In this document: positions 2,942 through 31,353 of the stretch, piece by piece
How positions within the stretch are numbered: the stretch's first letter is position 1
Layout: every line of letters starts with the position of its first letter
Virus record (IMG/VR): IMGVR_UViG_3300020401_000037
Coordinates: 1-37,189 of that record
Direction: 5' to 3' (one strand)
From: a virus
Length of the DNA stretch: 37,189 nt
Translations under genes and position numbers: made by a program
The notes under the pieces: model-generated
The model's database searches: none
Seen by the model: only the letters and a program-made list of their open reading frames with translations
What the model was told of the DNA's origin: nothing

Positions 2942-4469
2942 TGATTTAACACCAGAGCAAATGCGTAGAATTGCAGCGTCCCTATCTGATATGGGGCGCA
3001 AGGGTGATACGCAGCTTGTTCACGTAAATAAAAAAGAAGTAGAACTTTTAAAAACGCTAGGGTCTGGTACTAAAAATCCTAACACCGGATTGCTTGAGTT
3101 CTATCAAGAGGACGATGAGGACAACGGCGGTGGATATACAAGCTTCGCTGATATGTTCGATGGTGGTGGTCCAGGACAAAGCGGTGATACTTACGATAAT
3201 GATAACGACCCCAATAACGAAGTAACAGGCATAGCTCGTGTTTCTAATCGAATGGCTGGGGCTGGTCATGCTAACAACGGTCTTAATGACGATGATAGCA
3301 GAAATGATGATAAAGATTATACCTATGACTCATTTGCCGATATGTTCGATGGTGGCGGTATTGGTATGTCTGGTGACACGTATGGGCATGGTGACTTTTC
3401 AAATTTAGACAAAGATGGTGATGGTCACATTTCAAGGGCTGAAAGCGGTAAAGGATTACCAGGTGGTATTGATGGAGACAATGATAGTCCCTTCAAAATG
3501 GTTGCTAATGTAGTCGGCCTTGTTGCAAGTCCTGTTGCTTATCTTGGGGCTAAAGCAGCTAACAGTTACTTCGATAAAGATGGTGACGGTTCGATGTTTA
3601 CCACTGGTGGTAAGTTTACATTGTTTGGTGATGGTACAAACACAACTACTGGTAAAGCCAAAGCAATAACAACAACAGGAAGTAGTAACCGAAATAACAA
3701 TGAATCAACTCAATCAACTAGTGACGGCGAAGTAGATCAGACTGGTGCAGAGGGCGAAGAGTCCACTTACTCTCAAATAAGTGACTCAGTTCAATACAGA
3801 CCCACAGCATTTTCCTCTAGGCCAGAAAGACGCAAGTTTATAAACTACGACTATTCTGATGGTACAGGAAAACCAGTCGGCACTTACAACGGAAACGCCA
3901 AGCCTTTCCATGTAGCTACAAGCCAAGATAGTATTGATGCTTATTATGTTTCCGAGACAACATCTAACGCAATCGACAGTATGATTTCTGCAATGCCAAC
4001 AGAGATTCAAGATCAGTTAAGTGGTGAAATTTCAGTACAGCTTACAGCAGATAATAAACTGGCTCTTTTTGTCGGAAACGATGATAGTGGATATATCGAA
4101 GCTACATATGCCGCCGATGATGCTGGTATGGAAACGGCAATGAAAGACGTTGCCAATATGCTTTCATACGGCGAGGCTAGTGGCGACTTGAAAATAGACG
4201 CTGGATATACAGGTCGCGTTAGGTCTGCTCAACGTTTCCAAGGCTATAGCGATCAAGACTTATCCAATCAATTAGCATTATTAAAAAATGAAGGGGCGAC
4301 TTACCAAAAAGACGACCCTTTGTATCTTTTATATCTTGAGCGATTACAAGAGTTGGAAGACGAGATTGCAAGGCGCATGGGTGATGCAAAAACCACCACC
4401 GCGCAGTATTCAGTCGATGGAGTAACTCGCTCAGTACAAGAAAACGCTCAACAAATGTTTCAAGTTTAA
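2934..4469 (+). CDS. Virion-associated protein with GDT box and EF-hand loop
   Basis: A 511-residue acidic, Asp/Gly/Asn-rich protein of unknown function. Residues 24-57 carry a box of the form GDTxxxHxxxxxxxLLxxLG...NPNTGLLEFY, also present in the next small protein. A FADMFDGGG...GQSGDTY unit occurs near residues 71-87 and again near 134-150. Residues 159-170 (DKDGDGHISRAE) fit a canonical EF-hand calcium loop, with acidic ligands at positions 1, 3, 5 and 12 and Gly at 6. A second DKDGDG at 214-219 lacks the closing Glu. Residues 187-212 are hydrophobic (ANVVGLVASPVAYLGAKAA) and could contact membrane. The C-terminal part (residues 330-475) looks folded, with a helical end. The position between fibre and internal-core genes suggests a virion or ejected protein; this is inference. 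Confidence 0.5.
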   Translation: MYDDLTPEQMRRIAASLSDMGRKGDTQLVHVNKKEVELLKTLGSGTKNPNTGLLEFYQEDDEDNGGGYTSFADMFDGGGPGQSGDTYDNDNDPNNEVTGIARVSNRMAGAGHANNGLNDDDSRNDDKDYTYDSFADMFDGGGIGMSGDTYGHGDFSNLDKDGDGHISRAESGKGLPGGIDGDNDSPFKMVANVVGLVASPVAYLGAKAANSYFDKDGDGSMFTTGGKFTLFGDGTNTTTGKAKAITTTGSSNRNNNESTQSTSDGEVDQTGAEGEESTYSQISDSVQYRPTAFSSRPERRKFINYDYSDGTGKPVGTYNGNAKPFHVATSQDSIDAYYVSETTSNAIDSMISAMPTEIQDQLSGEISVQLTADNKLALFVGNDDSGYIEATYAADDAGMETAMKDVANMLSYGEASGDLKIDAGYTGRVRSAQRFQGYSDQDLSNQLALLKNEGATYQKDDPLYLLYLERLQELEDEIARRMGDAKTTTAQYSVDGVTRSVQENAQQMFQV

Positions 4470-10665: not shown

Positions 10666-13600
10666 ATGACCGATCCTTTAAAGGACTTTTTAAGTACAGA
10701 TTTTTCTAATTCTGGTATCGACAACAACAAAGAAGACTACTCGTATGTAAATCTTTCTGGTGTTGATCTTCTCACAAACAATGATGCAATCAAAGATGTA
10801 CGCGATTACTACGCTGCCCAAGGCGAGACATTTAGTAATTACTCTGAGATGTGGGACAAGTTCTACTCTGATCGGAGATGGGCAGACGTAAACACAGTAG
10901 GGGCTGGGTCTGCATTAGTTGAAAGCACAATGGCTGGTGATGATCGGGATCGGCTTGCTCGACTATCAAGAATTTGGGCAAATGCGCCTATGCGCGGAAC
11001 AACCTTAGATCGGGTTTGGGAGTACGGTAAAGCTGCTGTTCTTGACCCAACCAACCTTATCCCTGTTGCTGGTCAAGCCGCCAAAGCAAAGGCGGTTTAT
11101 ACTACTGCTCGTGCTGCTGGCAAAACACTACAGCAATCTAAAAATGCTGCTCGTATTGCTGGTGCAAAACAAGCTGGTAAACAAGAAGCGATTATCGGTG
11201 GAGCAGTCGGTGGTGGTCAAGACTTAATGAAGCAAGCCACAGAAGTTCAGCAAGGCTTATCAGAGGGAGTAGATGCTGGCAGAGTATTTACATCAGCCGC
11301 GCTTGATGCCGGACTTTCTGGTGCTGCTGGCTTTGGTTTGGATTTGGGTGGGACTAGTCAGATCGGTCAAGCGATACCTGGCATTAATAAAGTTCTTGGT
11401 GGTGACTATGCCGAAAACCTACCTGACTGGAATAAATCAACAACGCTGGGACAGAACTTATTACAGCGTCAACAAGTTACAGATCGGGAGCTAGAACGCC
11501 TCAGAGTCAAAAGAGATGAGGAAGGTATTGATGAAGTAGACAAGCAAGACCTTGATGAAATCATTGCTGCTAAAGAAGCCGAGATTGATTCAATCGAAGC
11601 AACTCGTCAACAGGTCGATGATATCAATTCCGAAATGGATGATCTGGCAAAGCAGATACAAGACGGTCAAAAAGCTGGTACAGATGTCAGCAAAATGCGT
11701 AAGCAGTTTAACCGCAAAAGCGCAGAGTTTAACAGGATTACTAGCAAGACTCGTATCCGCACTCGCAAACCTGTTGAGGCAGAGGCAGAAGAGCCGTTAG
11801 TTCTTACTGACGATATGCGTCAGAAAATGATAACAAAACAAGAAACACCACTGCTCGAAGGTGAAAGACAAAGAACGGTGGCTGATGATGAGGTAATTCA
11901 ATTACCAGGGGAAACATCAGGCAAAGGGACAGAAGGAAACCCAGCCGATGAAAATACCAATGTTGATGCTGCACCAGAACCAGCCCCAGAAGTGCAACTG
12001 TCAACTCCACGACTACAGGCAAGATTAGATAAAATACTCGCAAGCAATCCAGATACTTTGGACATGGCTAGAGTTAATCAGCTTGCCGCCGATGGTAAAC
12101 TGAAACTAACTTCTAAACAAAAGCTAGGAGCCGATGCACTATCAGATTTAGAAAAGATTGTAGCAACAGAACGTGCTGCTGATCCTGTAGCTGAGACTGT
12201 AAAAGAAACAGGAGAGGATGTAGTAGAGGCAACCGAGACTGTAGCCGAAGCAACTAAAGCCGAGGTGGATGATGAAGCGATAGCTGAATCAGTAGAATAC
12301 GCTCCATCAGTTACACCCGATCTTGAAGATGAAGCTGATGTTCTAGTTCCACAGATGATGAAAGAAGTCGCTGGTCTTTCTGGTGATAGGATTGTCAATG
12401 CTCGAACAAAAGTATTGCCAGCCCTTGAAGCCTCACCAGCAGTCAAACGTATTATCAGACAGAGACTTAATAATTTAGAACTCAGTCAAGCAAAGAAAGC
12501 TGGTGCGGTAAAGCCAGAGGAAGCTGCATCAGGTCGTAGCATCAAGCGTTCATCAGATCGAACTCAAGTATCTATGGATAGAATGGAAGATGTGCCACCA
12601 TACATCCCTGATCCAGACACAGGACGTTTAATTAAAAACCCTGAGTTTACAGAGTCAGATACGCCTGTATCAAGTGCGATAAGAATGGGTCAAAGATCAG
12701 GCGATCAGGTAGTTACAAACAAAGCTGGATTGCGGAAACAGGAGTTTGCCAAAACAACTGCTATTCGCATGGCAGAAGTAGACGCTAAAAAAGGCGTAGG
12801 AAAATTATTTTACCCATATGTTTCTTATCGTGGTGATGTACTTTCAGACGGTAAATCATCAGATGGTCTTACCGCTTACTATGTACCCCACATCGGCAAG
12901 TCTTTCAAAGACATCGACACTGTGCTCAAGGCGATGGAAACACAGGGCATAAAAGTAAACGAAGAGTTTGTCGTTTATGATGATGATATGGTTCCGATCT
13001 TTACTGATGCTCAGTATGCAGCAGAAAAAAATAAGATATTAGAAAGCTTCAAGGCGAAGAAAATCACGGCTGATGAAAAGAAAGCCAAGCTTGCACAGCT
13101 AGATGAACGAGCCGGAGCAGCTATGGATGAGCCACAGAAGAAAGAAGTTATAGGCCGTGACGGTAAAATAATTAAACGTTTAAGGGCTGGTATTCCGCAA
13201 CAACGCAACGGCAAGATTATTGCTGCTATTCCGCGCAAGAAGTTTGATGAAAATGGTGAGTTAATTCCAGCGCGAATGTTGACGCCTGGTCAAATTAAAA
13301 GAGGTTCATCAGCAGAGAAATTACTAGGCGGTTCGCAAGACGCTAATAATTGGTATATCGGTTACGTTCCTAAAAATATGCGTGACCAAACCTCTGACAT
13401 CGAAGCTATGATTGAAGACTTCGACCCTCTTGATGCAAGTAACAAGGTAGGAGATATTGATACTCAGAATCCTACTATGCCACCAGCCCCAAAAGATTTA
13501 GAGTCACAGGGCGACAGGCTTGTTATAGACACCAACAGTTTAAAAGAATCCGAAGTAAATACTCTATACATGGCGTATTCACTAGCTCGTAATCGGAACA

Positions 13601-16600
13601 TAAATCTTATTGGTGACTTGAAAGTACCAGCCGATATACATCAGCACCAAGTAACGTTGAGAGATTTAACACGCTTGGAGCAAATGATTGATCTAGCACC
13701 TTGGGAAGTGTCGTACAACATAGGCGGTAAAACAATACCGATGTCAAATGGCACACGGTTAAAAATGCTAGATACAATTCATGGTCTAGTAGACAGCATT
13801 GCTCCTAATGGTATTCGCAAACCAACTGTAGATATTGAAACCAGTTTGCAGCAGCTTGATACAATCTATCAAGGTGCTTCCCCAACCACTCGTAATAATA
13901 TGGAGAAACTTATACGTCTGGTTGCACCTGATGAAGTTGCTCCAATATTCGAGACAGCAGATATGGATGCTGATGTCCTTGGTCGATTTGTTAATGACAG
14001 GAATGATGCACTTAATCGTGTGCAAATAAATGCTGACATGATCGGCAAGACAGCCGATACTGTAGGTCTGTCTGAAACACACATTGTCGCGCATGAACTT
14101 GGTCATTGGGTGTACTCGAACCTTATGACTAACGCTGACAAAAAACAGTTTTGGAGAGCTATATCCGGCTATTATGATGGTGATGGTCGGTTATTTAAAG
14201 GCGGCGAACAGGATGCAATGATGCGTATCCGAACTCGCTCACCCTATTTCAAAGGTGCAGACGGTAGAGAAGTTGGATTCAAGAACGCACTAGATAACCC
14301 AGCAGAGTATTTTGCCAATCAATTCTCTTTATACATGGGTCAAAAATATGACTTGATGATGTGGCCTAATCAAACTTTTTGGAACAAGTTTATGGCACTT
14401 ACCAAAAAGCTTTGGTTCTTGATGTCCAATAAAACGGTAGTTGATCCTGACCTAGAGCCTATCTTTGACACAATAATTAAGCGCAAAGATTTACAGCTAC
14501 AGAAACAATTTATGCGTCCAAAAGAGCCGACAAACAAATACGCAAATGTATTGTTTGCGAACTATGACAACCTTCGAGTGTCGATGAATGAAATTGCTAG
14601 GGCTTTGCAGAGTGCTGACTACGCTACATTTATCGAAGCAATCAAGAAACCTGATAGTGGACTCGAAGCAACTTTAAAACGCTTGACCACACGAGAAGGT
14701 GAAGCGAAAAAATTTGCAGCTAAAAGAGGTGAAGATTTCCGAGGCTATACTGGTATGCTTCAAGTTATCAAAGAATACGGTACAGGTAACAAGTTGCGCG
14801 GTGCTCTTACTTATCTCGAAGGTATTGGTGAAAATACAACTGATAAAATTTCTAAAATTAAACCTAAGTTACAAGGTGCTGGGACTGACATTGAGATAGT
14901 TCCATTGCAAGACTTCCAAGATATATACAATGCGTATGAAAGTAAAATCGTACCAGCCCTCACTGATGCAATGGATCAGATCAATAGGGCTTATGAGAGA
15001 CTAACTGGTGGAGATATTCCGACACGAGTATTACATCCTCTCGAAGTTGAGCAGCGCAGCCGAACAGGTATGCAAAAGATAGAGCAAAGTCAGACTCTAA
15101 AGCAAAATACAAAAGAGGCTTCTAGGCGCAGAAATCTAAACCAATCATACATTGACCAAGCGGTGAAGCTGGTTAAGTCTAAAAAGACACCTGATGTTGA
15201 GGAAGACTTTGCTGGTTTTGCATCAAGCGAATTTCCTGACATAGCACCTTTGATGGTTGAGTTTGGTGTGGAAGCAAGAAAAGCGGGTAAGAAAGGCGAA
15301 GCTTTTACTGGCAAGACTAAAAAACTAGCAATGGCAATTGCCTCTAAATACGCCACTAAATTAAAAGTAACTAAGCCAGCTACCGTTGTGAAAGAGGGTA
15401 AGGGTGGTTATATCGAAGGTCCATATCAAAATGCTACAGGAGCACAGCTAGGAGTCTTGCTCCGAGAAGCTTTGATTGGAACAGGTGACAAGAAGAAACT
15501 TCAAGATGTCGCCTGGGAATTTTCAAGACCGAGAGGTAAGGCCAAACAAGCTATCATTCCTGATAGCCAAGCCGTTATCAATGCACTAAAAGTTGAGAGT
15601 GCATTTGAACTAGGTGGTGAAAGATTAGTTGGTATAGGTGAAAATACACCAATTGTTATTGATGACTTCTTAGAAAAGATAACTGCTCGAACACCAGAAA
15701 AATCTCATGCTGCTCGTAAGGTAGCAATGCGAGTTCTAGCATTAGGCCATAAGATAGCACCATCTACTAAGACAGAAGAGTTTACAGAGTTCCGCAACTT
15801 CGCAAGGAAAATGTCGGCTAATTTAGGTACAAATGATATAACCCAAACCGTAAGAGAGATAACCAAGCTTCTCTATTCTACAAAAGTTCTAAGTGATTCA
15901 ACTCGTAACCTACTAGAGAAGACAGCTATTAGATTTGGTTATGATGCGGATAGCATACTTCAAGAACTTGTCATTGAAGATGTAGATATGACCGCCAATA
16001 GAACATTGATGCAAGACATCAAGGAAACGCTTGGTGACGTTGACAATAATGACATCGAAGATGCAATCAATGAAGCTCGTAATGATATGAGAGATGCCGT
16101 TGCATACACAGTCAACGGTTTGATTTCTGATGAAGGTGCAAGAGAACGGTTCTTACCCCTGGCATTATATGGGGATATGAAGTCCGGTGAGGCTTCGATA
16201 AGCAGAGGATCACCAGCTAGTTATTATTCAAAGGATGTCCCAGCCGAATTTGCTGTTGAGTATGCAAATGAAACTATGGGTAGATTTTCACAAGCAAGTG
16301 TGGATGCGATTAAAGATTACACTGGTGGTAACACTGACATCTTTTTTCTTACCCCAAATAAGAGAGGTATTCTGGGTGACACACCAACAATCACAGATCG
16401 GCCTGTTAATAATCTAAGAAGCACTGGCGAACAAATTATTGAAAGCGCACCACTCGCAAGGCGTACTGTTGTCGCTGATCTTGTGGATCAATCTCGTGCA
16501 ATGCGTGAGTCAGTAAATAATATGAGGCAAGACGGTTCCAATAATGATATGCTAGATCACTATACATTTGTCGATGTAGTAGGAGAAAGATTAGAGCAGT

Positions 16601-19600
16601 TTGGTGCAACTGACTTTAGCAAGGTGACACCTGTATTTATCAAAGATTCAAAGCCAGCAATCTTTCCACAGAAAATGACATTCAAAGAAGGTGTCGTCAG
16701 AGGTATATCAGAAGCGATTAAAAGAAATGCTAAGAGTGCTGACATTGCTGCTCAAGTTGATAAGCTCGTGAGTCAGAAAGGTGTGTTCACAGGTAGGGAA
16801 GTATTCAATAACTTAACTAGTCTAGCTGGTGGTACTGACAAAATGAAACGACTTCTAAGACAGTATGGGTACTCAACCCTTACTGTCGATGGTCAACAGT
16901 CTGTGTTGTCTGATAAGTTCTATAAACAAATCAATAGTCCTGATCTTGTTAAGGCTAGACCTTTGCTTGGTGAGGCTCACGCTCCATCAGGTGTAAATAA
17001 CTACATCATTTCTGAGGCTAGAATTGCCAGTGATGGTGGTGAGCAAGCAACAAAGATAGCTGCTGCTGAACTTGAAAAAGCTGGCGTTAGTAAGAAAGCT
17101 TTAAAAGGTATTACCAATCTTCGTAATAAGACTTCGAAGAAAGGTGAAGGGCGACCTGTAAAAGAAAAAGATATTGAAGAAATAAGAGAGGCTATTCATG
17201 TAACCACTCGAACACAGTCAGATACTATTCGCCGTTCTGGTATGAATGAACTAGCTGAGTTCGCTGAACCGTCTGATGGTTCTGGTGGTCATTATGAAAG
17301 AGTCCATGCGAGAATGGCTAAAGTTCTACAGCCTATGACAAGATTGTTGAATGAATTGCCCGACTCAAAGAACTCTTTGTCGCGTTGGTTCGATGCTGGT
17401 TTACGCCAGATGTACGACACTACAGCCGAAGCTGCTGCTCGACTAATGGGTGATACAGATGGATCGAAGTTTGCGTTCAATCCTGTACGCCGTGAACAAC
17501 AACCTGAGTCACACCGTAGAATTGGACAAGCACTTCGCTACGAAAATGATGCAAGGTTTCTTAAACCATCAGAACGCAAAGTTTATAATCTCATAAGAGG
17601 TTACTTAGATGATATTCGTGGTAGGCTATCATCATCGGGTATGATGGTTGGAAACATTGCTGAGAACTATTTCCCTCAAGTATGGCGAACCGATCTTATA
17701 CAAGCTCGTAGAACAGAGTTCGAGTCTATCCTAACAGATTACCTAATGACAGAGGAAGCTGCTCGTACTGGATCACGACCAGCAAACAAAGAAGACTTTG
17801 CTAAACGTGCCAGAAGAATTACAACTCAGATGGTAGATGATGATGCTGGTGTAAACCTACCTGATAGCCAAGTGTTCAATGGCGATACTAAAAACGGTTT
17901 TCTAAAACAGCGTATGCTCAGACTAGATATGTTTCCAGAGTTTCGTGATGCAACAAATCCAAAAAGAGATTTATCAAAATTTTTGGAAAATGATCTGATG
18001 ATGGTAATGTCGAAGTACAGTGAGGGTGTTGAAAGAAAGCTAGATATTGTCGAAAAATTTGGCCCCAATGCTCATGGCTACAGGGACTACCTATCTATGA
18101 TTAGTGGTCGCACAGATGCGATGGTCAGACTTCTAACTGGTAATAAAATATTAAAGTCTGATTACCATATTCTTGCTGATCCAAATGATTCTGATTTGCC
18201 AGGTGCAGCAGTATATCAAGCTACTGCTAACTCATCTTTGTTCAAAGCTCCGTTTAGTTCTCGAAGAAAAGCTTTGTTGTTTACCGAGCAGCTAGTTCGT
18301 AAAGCTCAAGGTGGAGTAAAGAAGGATGAATTAACTCAAGACATCATGGCAAAGCTGGCTCCTACAGAAGATAGTGATGAGTTCTCTGACCAGATGAGAG
18401 CTAACTTTCTTAAAAGAGCACAAGCTATGGGCGCAGCATTAGAAGACACACGAGGGTTTACCAAGTTCCCAAGTCGTGAAAATGTGAGACACGCCGAAGG
18501 TTTCCTTGATCTTCTTATGAACAAAGCACAGGGTAGTGAGTCATGGCGTAAGACGACATCCACACTAAGAATGATAAATGGTGTAACACTATTGTCGTTT
18601 ACAACTCTAACAAGTTTAGGAGATTTAGTCCTACCACTTATTAGATCAGGAGACTTCAAAGCTTGGAGTACAGCACTCGCAAATTTCACTCGTGATCCGG
18701 TATCAGGCTCCGCATATCGTGACATGATCCGCAACGTGGGTGTTGCTGTTGAGAACACTGTTCATCAGCGTATGACAAACAGCTATGGTGTCGATGCAAA
18801 TAGGTTTACCACTGGTTTCTTTACAGCCACAGGATTAACACCCTGGACAGACATGATGAGAGAAATCGCTGGTGCTACAGCATACGAACATTTCAAAGCT
18901 CAAGCTCGTATTGCAATCGAAGCACCTAATACAAAGCAAGGCCGACTTGCCAAGAGAGCACTCGAAACATATGGTCTTCAACAGTTCGGAGAGAAGGGTG
19001 CTCCATCTATTGACATCATAATGAGAAGCGGCGGCACTCAAGCTGAACACGCCTTATATGAGAATGTTCAAACAGCAATGATTAAGTTTGCTAATGAAAC
19101 AATATTCGCACCGAATAAGAACGACCTACCACAGTGGGCAACCACACCAACAGGCCAACTTGTATTTCAACTTAAATCTTTTCCATTAAAGATGTTAAGG
19201 CTTGGTAGGTATGCTATCAATGAGGCTAAGAAATCACCAGATGGTGACAGGAACCTAGCACCACTTCTTTACTATATGACTGCTGGTCCAGCGATGGGAT
19301 TCACAGCAGCCAATGTAAAAGACGTTGTGCAAATGAGAGGTGGTGAAGACAATAGAGAGGCCGAGAGAAGGGAACGCCGACTAAGTAAAACCATCACCTC
19401 ACTCGAAGGTAAGCTTGGAGAAAATGCCGACAAAGCTTTGGGCTGGTACTTCGATGGGTTTATGACAATGGGCGGCTTGGGGATCATTGGTGAAATGCTT
19501 TACGACACTGTAGCGCAAGCTGATAATGGTGCTTATGGACAAGTTCGAGTAGGTGAAACTTTCTTTGGACCTTCGTTTGGATTAGGCATGGACGCATTAA

Positions 19601-19779
19601 CAATTACAGGTGGTGGGTTCTCCGCGATTGGTGATGCTATTTCTGGCGAAGGTACGAATGGTAAAGAACGTGCAGCAATGCGTGAGATTATCAGTCGTAT
19701 TCCTGTCGCTGGACAGATGGGCGGTGTTCGAGAAAGCGTTGTTGACCTTATCGCTGGAGAAAAGGGCGCACGTAAATAA
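10666..19779 (+). CDS. Giant 3037-residue internal virion/ejection protein with zinc-peptidase motif
   Basis: One uninterrupted frame fills about a quarter of the window. The N-terminus has a hydrophobic/Ala-Gly-rich region (residues 120-230), then helical charged linkers (to about 680). At 1143-1147 is HELGH, with H1143, E1144 and H1147, and 67 residues later E1214 in NPAEYFANQF, a plausible third zinc ligand; this is a complete gluzincin-like site. Around 1847-1866 the R-G-S-P...S-x-D-x-x-x-x-FAVEYA pattern faintly resembles ADP-ribosyltransferase-like domains seen in polyvalent phage proteins. The region around NYFPQVWR (about 2340) and the QLVFQLKSFPLKMLRLGRY phrase (about 2831) followed by hydrophobic Gly-rich segments are features I associate with large ejected proteins at the T7 gp16 position (gp16 itself is 1318 residues). 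It is probably injected with the DNA; the enzymatic targets are unknown. Confidence 0.6.
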   Translation: MTDPLKDFLSTDFSNSGIDNNKEDYSYVNLSGVDLLTNNDAIKDVRDYYAAQGETFSNYSEMWDKFYSDRRWADVNTVGAGSALVESTMAGDDRDRLARLSRIWANAPMRGTTLDRVWEYGKAAVLDPTNLIPVAGQAAKAKAVYTTARAAGKTLQQSKNAARIAGAKQAGKQEAIIGGAVGGGQDLMKQATEVQQGLSEGVDAGRVFTSAALDAGLSGAAGFGLDLGGTSQIGQAIPGINKVLGGDYAENLPDWNKSTTLGQNLLQRQQVTDRELERLRVKRDEEGIDEVDKQDLDEIIAAKEAEIDSIEATRQQVDDINSEMDDLAKQIQDGQKAGTDVSKMRKQFNRKSAEFNRITSKTRIRTRKPVEAEAEEPLVLTDDMRQKMITKQETPLLEGERQRTVADDEVIQLPGETSGKGTEGNPADENTNVDAAPEPAPEVQLSTPRLQARLDKILASNPDTLDMARVNQLAADGKLKLTSKQKLGADALSDLEKIVATERAADPVAETVKETGEDVVEATETVAEATKAEVDDEAIAESVEYAPSVTPDLEDEADVLVPQMMKEVAGLSGDRIVNARTKVLPALEASPAVKRIIRQRLNNLELSQAKKAGAVKPEEAASGRSIKRSSDRTQVSMDRMEDVPPYIPDPDTGRLIKNPEFTESDTPVSSAIRMGQRSGDQVVTNKAGLRKQEFAKTTAIRMAEVDAKKGVGKLFYPYVSYRGDVLSDGKSSDGLTAYYVPHIGKSFKDIDTVLKAMETQGIKVNEEFVVYDDDMVPIFTDAQYAAEKNKILESFKAKKITADEKKAKLAQLDERAGAAMDEPQKKEVIGRDGKIIKRLRAGIPQQRNGKIIAAIPRKKFDENGELIPARMLTPGQIKRGSSAEKLLGGSQDANNWYIGYVPKNMRDQTSDIEAMIEDFDPLDASNKVGDIDTQNPTMPPAPKDLESQGDRLVIDTNSLKESEVNTLYMAYSLARNRNINLIGDLKVPADIHQHQVTLRDLTRLEQMIDLAPWEVSYNIGGKTIPMSNGTRLKMLDTIHGLVDSIAPNGIRKPTVDIETSLQQLDTIYQGASPTTRNNMEKLIRLVAPDEVAPIFETADMDADVLGRFVNDRNDALNRVQINADMIGKTADTVGLSETHIVAHELGHWVYSNLMTNADKKQFWRAISGYYDGDGRLFKGGEQDAMMRIRTRSPYFKGADGREVGFKNALDNPAEYFANQFSLYMGQKYDLMMWPNQTFWNKFMALTKKLWFLMSNKTVVDPDLEPIFDTIIKRKDLQLQKQFMRPKEPTNKYANVLFANYDNLRVSMNEIARALQSADYATFIEAIKKPDSGLEATLKRLTTREGEAKKFAAKRGEDFRGYTGMLQVIKEYGTGNKLRGALTYLEGIGENTTDKISKIKPKLQGAGTDIEIVPLQDFQDIYNAYESKIVPALTDAMDQINRAYERLTGGDIPTRVLHPLEVEQRSRTGMQKIEQSQTLKQNTKEASRRRNLNQSYIDQAVKLVKSKKTPDVEEDFAGFASSEFPDIAPLMVEFGVEARKAGKKGEAFTGKTKKLAMAIASKYATKLKVTKPATVVKEGKGGYIEGPYQNATGAQLGVLLREALIGTGDKKKLQDVAWEFSRPRGKAKQAIIPDSQAVINALKVESAFELGGERLVGIGENTPIVIDDFLEKITARTPEKSHAARKVAMRVLALGHKIAPSTKTEEFTEFRNFARKMSANLGTNDITQTVREITKLLYSTKVLSDSTRNLLEKTAIRFGYDADSILQELVIEDVDMTANRTLMQDIKETLGDVDNNDIEDAINEARNDMRDAVAYTVNGLISDEGARERFLPLALYGDMKSGEASISRGSPASYYSKDVPAEFAVEYANETMGRFSQASVDAIKDYTGGNTDIFFLTPNKRGILGDTPTITDRPVNNLRSTGEQIIESAPLARRTVVADLVDQSRAMRESVNNMRQDGSNNDMLDHYTFVDVVGERLEQFGATDFSKVTPVFIKDSKPAIFPQKMTFKEGVVRGISEAIKRNAKSADIAAQVDKLVSQKGVFTGREVFNNLTSLAGGTDKMKRLLRQYGYSTLTVDGQQSVLSDKFYKQINSPDLVKARPLLGEAHAPSGVNNYIISEARIASDGGEQATKIAAAELEKAGVSKKALKGITNLRNKTSKKGEGRPVKEKDIEEIREAIHVTTRTQSDTIRRSGMNELAEFAEPSDGSGGHYERVHARMAKVLQPMTRLLNELPDSKNSLSRWFDAGLRQMYDTTAEAAARLMGDTDGSKFAFNPVRREQQPESHRRIGQALRYENDARFLKPSERKVYNLIRGYLDDIRGRLSSSGMMVGNIAENYFPQVWRTDLIQARRTEFESILTDYLMTEEAARTGSRPANKEDFAKRARRITTQMVDDDAGVNLPDSQVFNGDTKNGFLKQRMLRLDMFPEFRDATNPKRDLSKFLENDLMMVMSKYSEGVERKLDIVEKFGPNAHGYRDYLSMISGRTDAMVRLLTGNKILKSDYHILADPNDSDLPGAAVYQATANSSLFKAPFSSRRKALLFTEQLVRKAQGGVKKDELTQDIMAKLAPTEDSDEFSDQMRANFLKRAQAMGAALEDTRGFTKFPSRENVRHAEGFLDLLMNKAQGSESWRKTTSTLRMINGVTLLSFTTLTSLGDLVLPLIRSGDFKAWSTALANFTRDPVSGSAYRDMIRNVGVAVENTVHQRMTNSYGVDANRFTTGFFTATGLTPWTDMMREIAGATAYEHFKAQARIAIEAPNTKQGRLAKRALETYGLQQFGEKGAPSIDIIMRSGGTQAEHALYENVQTAMIKFANETIFAPNKNDLPQWATTPTGQLVFQLKSFPLKMLRLGRYAINEAKKSPDGDRNLAPLLYYMTAGPAMGFTAANVKDVVQMRGGEDNREAERRERRLSKTITSLEGKLGENADKALGWYFDGFMTMGGLGIIGEMLYDTVAQADNGAYGQVRVGETFFGPSFGLGMDALTITGGGFSAIGDAISGEGTNGKERAAMREIISRIPVAGQMGGVRESVVDLIAGEKGARK

Positions 19780-29364: not shown

Positions 29365-29871
29365 ATGATGTATCACAATCAAATGTATGCTCCTATCACG
29401 CATGGAGCGCAAGATATGAATGACAATTTAAGGCTCGACATAGCTAGACTAGAAGCAAAGGTCGATATGTTAGTCCAACTAGCAATGAATGGAAATACTA
29501 CTATTCCAGATAGCAAAGCGGCATCAGGTCATAGCCAGCTAAACATTGCGGAAGCATCCTTACTTCGGAGACTAACGATAAAGCAACATTGCGTTGCTCA
29601 ACTCTTAATCGAGGGTTGGAAAAATGGAGAGATTGCAGAACTAATGGGCGTATCGGACAACACAATTAAGTTGCACGTTTCGGCTATTGCAAAAAAGATG
29701 GGAGTAAAAGTTAGAACTCAGATAGCTATGTCGTTCTCTGAGATAACTCAGAAAGCATCAGACTCAGAGTACGAGCAAGCATCAGGTGGAATCCCTAAAT
29801 CTTGGGGAGCCAACGCCAGCATCGGAATGGATGATCCATTGGCTGCTCTTTACGCACCGCAAAGGAAATGA
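29365..29871 (+). CDS. LuxR/GerE-type helix-turn-helix regulator
   Basis: A 168-residue protein with a GGGGGGAAGGT ribosome binding site. Residues 22-45 are helical (LRLDIARLEAKVDMLVQLA). Residues about 68-120 form a GerE helix-turn-helix (LTIKQHCVAQLLIEGWKNGEIAELMGVSDNTIKLHVSAIAKKMGVKVRTQIA), without an autoinducer or receiver domain. Such stand-alone GerE proteins bind promoter DNA as dimers. It stops one base before the integrase start, which makes it a likely regulator of integration. The 90-bp gap upstream has a modest promoter (TTGATA, 17 bp, TAATCT). Confidence 0.75.
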   Translation: MMYHNQMYAPITHGAQDMNDNLRLDIARLEAKVDMLVQLAMNGNTTIPDSKAASGHSQLNIAEASLLRRLTIKQHCVAQLLIEGWKNGEIAELMGVSDNTIKLHVSAIAKKMGVKVRTQIAMSFSEITQKASDSEYEQASGGIPKSWGANASIGMDDPLAALYAPQRK

Positions 29872-29872
29872 A

Positions 29873-30931
29873 ATGGCTGGATTAAGATTAACTAAGAGAG
29901 CCAATTCAAAGTATTGGCAGTCGGATGGAACCATGAAGATCAATGGTATTTCTGTAAGAGTTCGAGAGCCACTTGGGACAGAGGATAAGGATGAAGCTTA
30001 TCTGAATCTCAAGACTCTTGAGTTTGAATTGCTGACCGGAAAGAAAGTAATCGGTAAGAAAAAATCTAGTGGAGATATTTTGATTGAAGAATTAATTATC
30101 AAGTTCAAACAAGATGTCACCACTGGATCAGGCCGAACAACTGAGCAATTGCTGACCAACTTCCATGACAGAATTGGTAAGCTATCAACTCGTGAGTTTA
30201 CTCAGGCTGATGCAAGTCAGTACATCTATGAGTATCACACCTCGCAAGGACACAGTGTAAACAATATCCGAAGGGTAATGACTCAGCTTCAATCACTGTT
30301 GAACTATGGATTCGAGCAAGGCTTTAGAGCAGAGAAAATAAAAATTAAAAAGCCACCCGAAGAAATAAAAGACATTGAAGTATTCACAAGAGAAGAAATC
30401 GAAAAGATATTCAAGCACCTGGACGCGCACACAAAGAGATTGTGTTCGTTCATTCTGAATACTGGTGCTCGACCTATCGAAGCTATGACTCTCAAGAAGA
30501 AAGACCTAGACCTACCTCGTAAGGAAGTCACTCTGACTTCGATCAAGGGTAAGAATAGGAAAGCAAGAAAGAGAGTTATTCCATTGAACAATAAAGCTTA
30601 CGCTGCTGCTCATGGTAATCAACTCGCAAGTGCGGATCATAACGGCGAACTTGTATTCACCTACCTCGCACATGGATTGCATCGACCCTTCCATACTGAG
30701 GCTGGTAAGAGTGTGTTTAATCATCGCTGGAATCGTGCTTGTATAGCTGCGAAAGTTGTGGGTAAGCCACCTTACACTTTAAGGCACACGTTCGGCACAC
30801 GGCTCGGTAATAACAACACACCTTTCGCCACAGTACAGTCACTAATGGGACACACCGATCCCAAAACTACAATGAGATACGTGCATCCTACTTATCAGGA
30901 TCATGTTAATGCTGTAACGTCTATCGTGTAG
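29873..30931 (+). CDS. int: Tyrosine-recombinase integrase
   Basis: A 352-residue integrase starting at ATG 29873 (AAAGGAAATG). Residues 1-60 form an arm-binding-type beta domain, 65-160 a SAM-like core-binding domain, and 170-352 the catalytic domain. Catalytic residues: R200 (NTGARPIE), K225 (SIKGK), R304 (YTLRHTFGT), H327 (LMGHTD) and Tyr336 (TTMRYVHP). The residue three before R304, usually His, is Tyr301. It inserts and, with helpers, excises the phage; the attP-like site lies 16 bp after its stop. Confidence 0.9.
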   Translation: MAGLRLTKRANSKYWQSDGTMKINGISVRVREPLGTEDKDEAYLNLKTLEFELLTGKKVIGKKKSSGDILIEELIIKFKQDVTTGSGRTTEQLLTNFHDRIGKLSTREFTQADASQYIYEYHTSQGHSVNNIRRVMTQLQSLLNYGFEQGFRAEKIKIKKPPEEIKDIEVFTREEIEKIFKHLDAHTKRLCSFILNTGARPIEAMTLKKKDLDLPRKEVTLTSIKGKNRKARKRVIPLNNKAYAAAHGNQLASADHNGELVFTYLAHGLHRPFHTEAGKSVFNHRWNRACIAAKVVGKPPYTLRHTFGTRLGNNNTPFATVQSLMGHTDPKTTMRYVHPTYQDHVNAVTSIV

Positions 30932-30947
30932 GCGTGACAGTCACATA

Positions 30948-31048
30948 ACGACTTTGGTTTAGTCCAGTTACCTTGGCTCCGTAGCTCAACTGGATAGAGC
31001 AGCCCCCTCCTAAGGGGCAGAGCTTTATAAAAACTAAACCTAAGTCGT
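30948..31048. other. attP candidate: tRNA core between inverted repeats
   Basis: The 16-mer ACGACTTTGGTTTAGT (30948-30963) returns as its inverse complement at 31033-31048 with one mismatch. Between them lies a 46-nt tRNA half that would be the sequence shared with the host. The position directly behind the integrase and presence of phage genes on both sides fit an undisturbed attP. The repeats are probable integrase or helper binding sites. Confidence 0.75.
30975..31020 (+). pseudogene. 5' half of a tRNA-Arg(CCT), probable attachment core
   Basis: GGCTCCG acceptor arm, D stem GCTC/GAGC (30984-30987 with 30997-31000), and anticodon stem GCCCC/GGGGC (31002-31006 with 31014-31018) with loop CTCCTAA, so anticodon CCT at 31009-31011. 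Sequence leaves the tRNA after AG, with no T arm and no 3' acceptor strand, so it cannot work alone. It has the orientation of the integrase gene. Confidence 0.85.
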
Positions 31049-31056
31049 GCTTAACC

Positions 31057-31075
31057 AGAGACATTAGTTGTCTCT
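31057..31075. promoter_or_regulatory. Short dyad downstream of attP
   Basis: AGAGACA and TGTCTCT form a 7-bp stem with a 5-nt loop. There is no T-run after it, so it is a weak terminator at best; it may be an operator for the small gene at 31132. Confidence 0.35.
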
Positions 31076-31131: not shown

Positions 31132-31353
31132 ATGAGCAAAAATACAGGCAATATTATATCACTCAAAGACGCTAAACCACACACCGAATTGCATCTCAAG
31201 GACATACCTTTTGATGAGCTAGTGGATAGTGTTAGAGATGAATTGGTAAACGTGTTGCGTGAGGTAATGCCCCACAACTACAACACTGATGATATAGAAA
31301 TTTTAACAAAAGTTTTTAAGGAAATTTTTGTGACAGACTTACCTACCGACTAA
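31132..31353 (+). CDS. Small acidic protein next to attP, function unknown
   Basis: A 73-residue protein; the ATG at 31132 follows AAAGAGGCA, preferred to an upstream TTG without a ribosome binding site. The sequence is acidic and largely helical (LKDIPFDELVDSVRDELVNVLREVM), with no known motif. It points toward and overlaps, end to end, the leftward small-gene block by 15 bp. A small regulator or inhibitor is possible, without direct evidence. Confidence 0.5.
   Translation: MSKNTGNIISLKDAKPHTELHLKDIPFDELVDSVRDELVNVLREVMPHNYNTDDIEILTKVFKEIFVTDLPTD

Follow-up and report, generated by a model that had tools for sequence, protein, structure and literature searches.

A tRNA-Arg(CCT) 5' half framed by inverted repeats as the probable attachment site of a temperate Rhodobacteraceae phage

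Among the genomic islands collected by Islander, those with a displaced 5' tDNA fragment number 159, against 3760 with a displaced 3' one, and attachment at the anticodon loop is among the common classes (PMC4383910). The locus described here lies in a virus record of 37,189 bases (IMG/VR IMGVR_UViG_3300020401_000037), referred to below in its full length as the window, and, as in the Islander 5'-fragment class, the 5' part of the tRNA is contributed by the element; the window differs from that class in representing a marine phage clade, known in the un-integrated form, and in the single pair of inverted repeats that encloses the half gene. The remark in the initial annotation that phages more often carry the 3' part of their target agrees with these counts, the 5' type being a minority class; the locus is unusual in that sense only, and the class itself was already known. 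Archaeal pTN3-like elements likewise restore a tRNA from its 5' half, away from the original promoter (PMC5495485, PMC8371274). Common to them and the window are the use of a tRNA 5' half as att and the expected loss of the original promoter by the rebuilt tRNA, but in pTN3 the att lies inside int, which is split by integration, whereas in the window int stays whole and upstream.

In CrimD and the cluster K1 mycobacteriophages, the core lies between putative arm-type sites in inverted orientation, whose consensus co-varies within a genome (PMC3203893). These attPs resemble that of the window in the inverted flanking sites and in a stem-loop near attP, a terminator in CrimD/K1 and possibly so in the window; CrimD, however, targets tmRNA with two sites on either side of the core, whereas the window has a tRNA-Arg 5' half with a single repeat on either side. 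Roseophage CRP-810 (OR671924, PMC11288001) is similar to the window in its Rhodobacteraceae host and in the succession of a LuxR gene, the integrase gene and att. Its Int is only distantly related to that of the window (27% identity over 72%), and, unlike the window, it has a complete tRNA-Thr gene, which lies on the opposite strand, with a 13-bp core downstream of this tRNA-Thr; on Int identity and att layout CRP-810 is thus not a close relative. Within the pelagiphage and retroregulation literature, no title or abstract mentioned a layout of int, arm, tRNA 5' half and inverted arm.

The gene content of the window is phage-like and includes a prim-pol helicase, a Cas4/YqaJ-type exonuclease, a Sak4-like annealing protein, amidases and an integrase; an ORF of 3037 aa (10666-19779) had no PHROG match. 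The int gene (29873..30931, + strand) is a full-length ORF for a tyrosine integrase of 352 aa with conserved catalytic motifs (PF00589, E 2e-25; PHROG_1), and directly 5' of it, in the same order as in CRP-810, lies a LuxR-type (GerE) HTH gene (29365..29871, + strand; PF00196, E 3.8e-12). AlphaFold2 modelled the N-terminal 55 residues of Int as three strands and a helix, the topology of arm-binding domains (b-b-b-a, residues 5-55), and the top Foldseek match of the model was full-length lambda Int, 1z1b; the model is of low confidence, with a mean pLDDT of 64. Just 3' of the int stop and before the first of the repeats described below there is a palindrome, GTGACAGTCAC (30934..30944). A resembling element, GTGTG-n5-TCACAC, occupies the same place in the related contigs L002-L009, and in this gap between int and left arm the relatives repeatedly show an element of the TGTG-n5-CACA type and the motif CACAYAAC. 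On the other side of the locus RNA folding predicts a separate hairpin, AGAGACAttagTTGTCTCT (31057..31075, + strand), which has no clear T run and is possibly the int terminator; no consensus terminator was found, and an Rfam search gave no relevant match. The adjoining ORF of 73 aa (31132..31353, + strand), kept beside attP in L002-L009 and with no Pfam or PHROG match, is a possible directionality factor.

The attP region extends from 30948 to 31048. Within it, 43 bp after the int stop, 46 nt at 30975-31020 form the 5' half of a tRNA-Arg(CCT) gene on the same (+) strand as int, comprising the 5' acceptor strand, the D arm and the entire anticodon stem-loop, with the anticodon loop CTCCTAA at 31007-31013; this bears out the earlier estimate of about 45 retained positions, anticodon loop included, in the direction of int. 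ARAGORN called no tRNA in the 37,189 bases, so that the window holds just half of one. A pattern scan of GTDB genomes for the host tRNA matched at least 118 stretches, and among the matches listed nearly all were named as Rhodobacteraceae and their relatives. The nearest host gene among the matches shown, that of the Rhodobacteraceae genome L054, is identical to the phage half at 45 of 46 bases; the tyrosine recombinase gene adjoins a tRNA-identical core, as in a tyrosine integrase/tRNA attP. The lone mismatch is at tRNA position 9, which is A in the phage and G in L054 and in all hosts among the matches listed; a pattern requiring A at this position matched no host tRNA in 385 Alphaproteobacteria genomes, and the exact core was found nowhere in IMG/VR beyond the window's own record. 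Identity to L054 amounts to 38/39 over tRNA positions 1-39 and drops to 11/38 beyond the anticodon loop; a host match through the whole tRNA, which the initial annotation had named as evidence against its reading, is not what the comparison gave.

Integrase searches of IMG/VR yielded a nearer set of contigs (L002-L011, 53-59% identical) and a distant set (L170-L199, L223 and L395). In both sets int is followed by an arm, the tRNA 5' half and the inverted arm, an arrangement seen in about 22 distinct related attPs from some 14 lineages, the half being that of tRNA-Arg or tRNA-Ser(GCT). Arg(CCT) is used by the nearer set except L004 and L010 and by a few distant contigs, and Ser(GCT) by most contigs of the distant set; in the flank examined, L176 had nothing recognisable as a tRNA half. 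In L004 (4490-4620) and L010 (7050-7180) a different core, GCCTTATGGTTTATGG...CCCTCTGGCACGGGGC, stands in place of the tRNA-Arg half, with similar arms and an integrase near-identical to that of L005; since the differences from the L005 Int lie mainly around residues 262-298, in the catalytic domain, a switch of target is possible there. In many further IMG/VR contigs (e.g. L342, L379 and L411) a host-type promoter precedes a tRNA-Ser(GCT) 5' half that lacks a related int beside it; these are probably displaced fragments from other 5'-mode integrations.

In the relatives the 5' half is host-like, the 3' side of the anticodon stem is already drifting (GGGTC, AGGGC, AGGAC, AGATG and others), and invariance extends as far as the 7-bp loop, CTCCTAA in the Arg and CTGCTAA in the Ser types. 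Identity to the host ends at the anticodon loop or a few bases past it, which, together with the carriage of the 5' half, is the pattern of 5'-fragment tDNA islands. A conserved 5' half next to a drifting 3' side is expected if the phage half, unlike the other side, has to be functional once the tRNA is rebuilt. As identity to the host tRNA stops there, we infer that the crossover lies at the anticodon loop; the loop (31007..31013, + strand) is the proposed 7-bp overlap region, and the flanking strands of the anticodon stem are the proposed core-type sites. Joined in silico at the loop, the phage 5' and host 3' sequences were recognised by ARAGORN as tRNA-Arg(CCT) with four hosts of four, and no tRNA was called in attP or at the host 5'-phage junction; in silico, integration restores an intact tRNA.

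The locus is probably the attP of a temperate Rhodobacteraceae phage, with the crossover in the anticodon loop and the repeats as arm-type sites. The integrase would recombine the phage copy of the anticodon stem-loop with the host tRNA-Arg(CCT) gene by strand exchange within the 7-bp loop; the phage 5' half and the host 3' half would then form an intact tRNA directly downstream of int, and the host 5' half would be displaced, with its native promoter, to the opposite prophage end. The 16-bp inverted repeats would be bound by the N-terminal domain of the integrase, one arm-type site on each side of the core. The attP reading itself, the 5'-half polarity and the joining of the host 3' half to the phage copy, all proposed in the initial annotation, are supported by the conservation in relatives, by the in-silico junctions and by two elements, described below, that have independently inserted into this tRNA gene in the 5' mode; the same evidence supports its suggestion that the rebuilt tRNA would stand behind phage sequence, with int and other phage DNA upstream. 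The strong fold around the tRNA half would also suit a tRNA-derived small RNA or a decoy, with the repeats as a processing hairpin and integration as a secondary matter, but such a role is highly improbable: att function is favoured by the location beside int, by the switch of other lineages to tRNA-Ser(GCT) with similar arms and by the fact that identity stops at the anticodon loop.

No prophage with this integrase family was found, at the thresholds used, in 395 Rhodobacteraceae and 385 Alphaproteobacteria genomes, sets which contained no positive-control genome. The proposed search of bacterial genomes for attL and attR thus gave nothing for this Int family, but it revealed unrelated 5'-half islands in the same tRNA gene. 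A lack of lysogens in these genomes is what a degenerate or inactive attP, left over in a now strictly lytic phage, would produce; with an integrase ORF of full length and conserved catalytic motifs, and with the tRNA half, loop and arms kept across relatives, this is very unlikely. The unrelated elements occupy tRNA-Arg(CCT) in two Rhodobacteraceae genomes, and they too use the 5'-half mode. The island in Thalassobacter stenotrophicus (L412, 3666-10822) is 7 kb long and has a different integrase (PF14659); it is delimited on one side by the displaced 5' half, near 3666, and on the other by the intact tRNA, at 10746. In Roseovarius tolerans (L439 and L433) a displaced 5' half adjoins an int-like start on one contig, and an intact tRNA-Arg lies behind AT-rich DNA on a second contig. 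The reconstructed core is flanked there by CTAAGTATCTGA and TCAGATACTTAG, which are the inverse of each other, and judging by sequence this is another element with inverted repeats round the 5' half.

The left arm in the window, ACGACTTTGGTTTAGT (30948..30963, + strand), is a proposed arm-type Int site, and the right arm, ACTAAACCTAAGTCGT (31033..31048, - strand), is complementary to it at 15 of 16 positions, exactly as first described; the 16-bp arms are separated by 69 nt. They form the sole inverted repeat of at least 15/16 with a loop of 20-139 nt in all 37,189 bases, and no further closely matching arm copies were found near attP. Because the repeats have no match in the host, they lie outside the crossover homology. 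The attP region folds at z = -4.2 as single-stranded DNA and, as RNA, at z = -5.5 in the int sense (0/200 shuffles as stable) and -4.3 on the opposite strand. An inverted repeat spans the core in all 27 related attPs scored (about 22 distinct), with at most 4 of 200 mononucleotide shuffles reaching or beating each, these sequences being not independent and representing roughly 14 arm lineages. The arms agree within each phage and differ between lineages, and loop lengths range from 63 to 127 nt.

The repeats are most likely arm-type sites of the integrase, a reading suggested by the resemblance of arms across lineages, by the predicted b-b-b-a N-terminus of Int and by the CrimD-type precedent. 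Of 91 lineage pairs whose arms were compared with shuffles, 35 reached p<=0.05, as opposed to 9 when the orientation was reversed, and arm similarity tracks integrase similarity (Mantel p 0.002). Lambda-type heterobivalent integrases combine an N-terminal arm-binding domain with arm-type sites on both sides of the core, for which the predicted b-b-b-a domain and the inverted repeat pair of the window are candidates. Some observations speak against arm-type sites: the window's own arms poorly resemble those of its closest relatives, the Int model has the low mean pLDDT given above, and arm similarity correlates almost equally with the arm-binding domain and with the remainder of Int (partial correlations of 0.23 and 0.17), so that this contrast failed as a discriminator. 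Moreover, in L004 and L005, whose arm-binding domains are near-identical, the two arms have changed in concert, which is what pairing would predict.

In phage lambda, int is subject to retroregulation by sib, an RNA structure beyond attP that is separated from int by integration; the two stem arms of the window, in contrast, lie on both sides of attP. Acting as RNA, the repeats could form a 15-bp stem across attP in the int transcript of the free phage and lower int expression in a sib-like manner, and integration would separate the arms and abolish the hairpin, so that int expression would differ in the prophage. The stronger fold in the int sense is consistent with this, as are the coordinated change in L004 and L005, the matching of arms within each phage while sequences and loop lengths vary, and mismatches apparently richer in G.U than in A.C (roughly 7 to 3 by hand count, not significant). 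We nevertheless consider it rather unlikely: arm sequences are alike across lineages, a likeness that pairing alone does not need, the excess of G.U is weak, the number of lineages is small, and the predicted arm-binding-type domain of Int would require sites somewhere. It is likewise doubtful that a hairpin existing on the int mRNA solely in the free phage lets the integration state set both int expression and the new tRNA transcript, and is kept by compensatory change across the marine phage clade. Arm-type sites and an RNA hairpin are compatible, and the repeats may serve as both.

Integration would separate the rebuilt tRNA from its own promoter. Host tRNA-Ser(GCT) genes have TTG at -36 and TA at -13 in 10 of 12 cases, and the Ser-type phage attPs have them at the same positions in 12 of 13; as this host geometry is kept though the remaining sequence differs, the Ser-type relatives appear to carry a replacement promoter. 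In the window a candidate, GTGACA-18-TTTAGT-11-tRNA, has host-like spacing but is weak and non-significant, 24% of random genomic sites scoring equally high, and no sigma-70 consensus was found. No promoter-like site was found in the clade L002-L009 either, and there the default expectation is that read-through from int would supply the rebuilt tRNA. The initial suggestion that the tRNA might come under phage transcription is thus upheld for the Ser-type relatives, with a promoter at host spacing, and not for the window itself.

The 5'-half mode is uncommon but already known, and the window phage adds to that minority; of added interest are the arm pair conserved across a marine clade and the promoter apparently carried in its Ser branch. 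A clade of marine Rhodobacteraceae phages employs this less common mode, and the same tRNA-Arg gene is also struck in the 5'-half mode by unrelated islands. Since the Ser(GCT) branch appears to carry a promoter at the exact host spacing, transcription of the host tRNA gene would rely on phage DNA after integration, and this dependence offers a simple, testable approach to the question of how the loss of a prophage becomes difficult.
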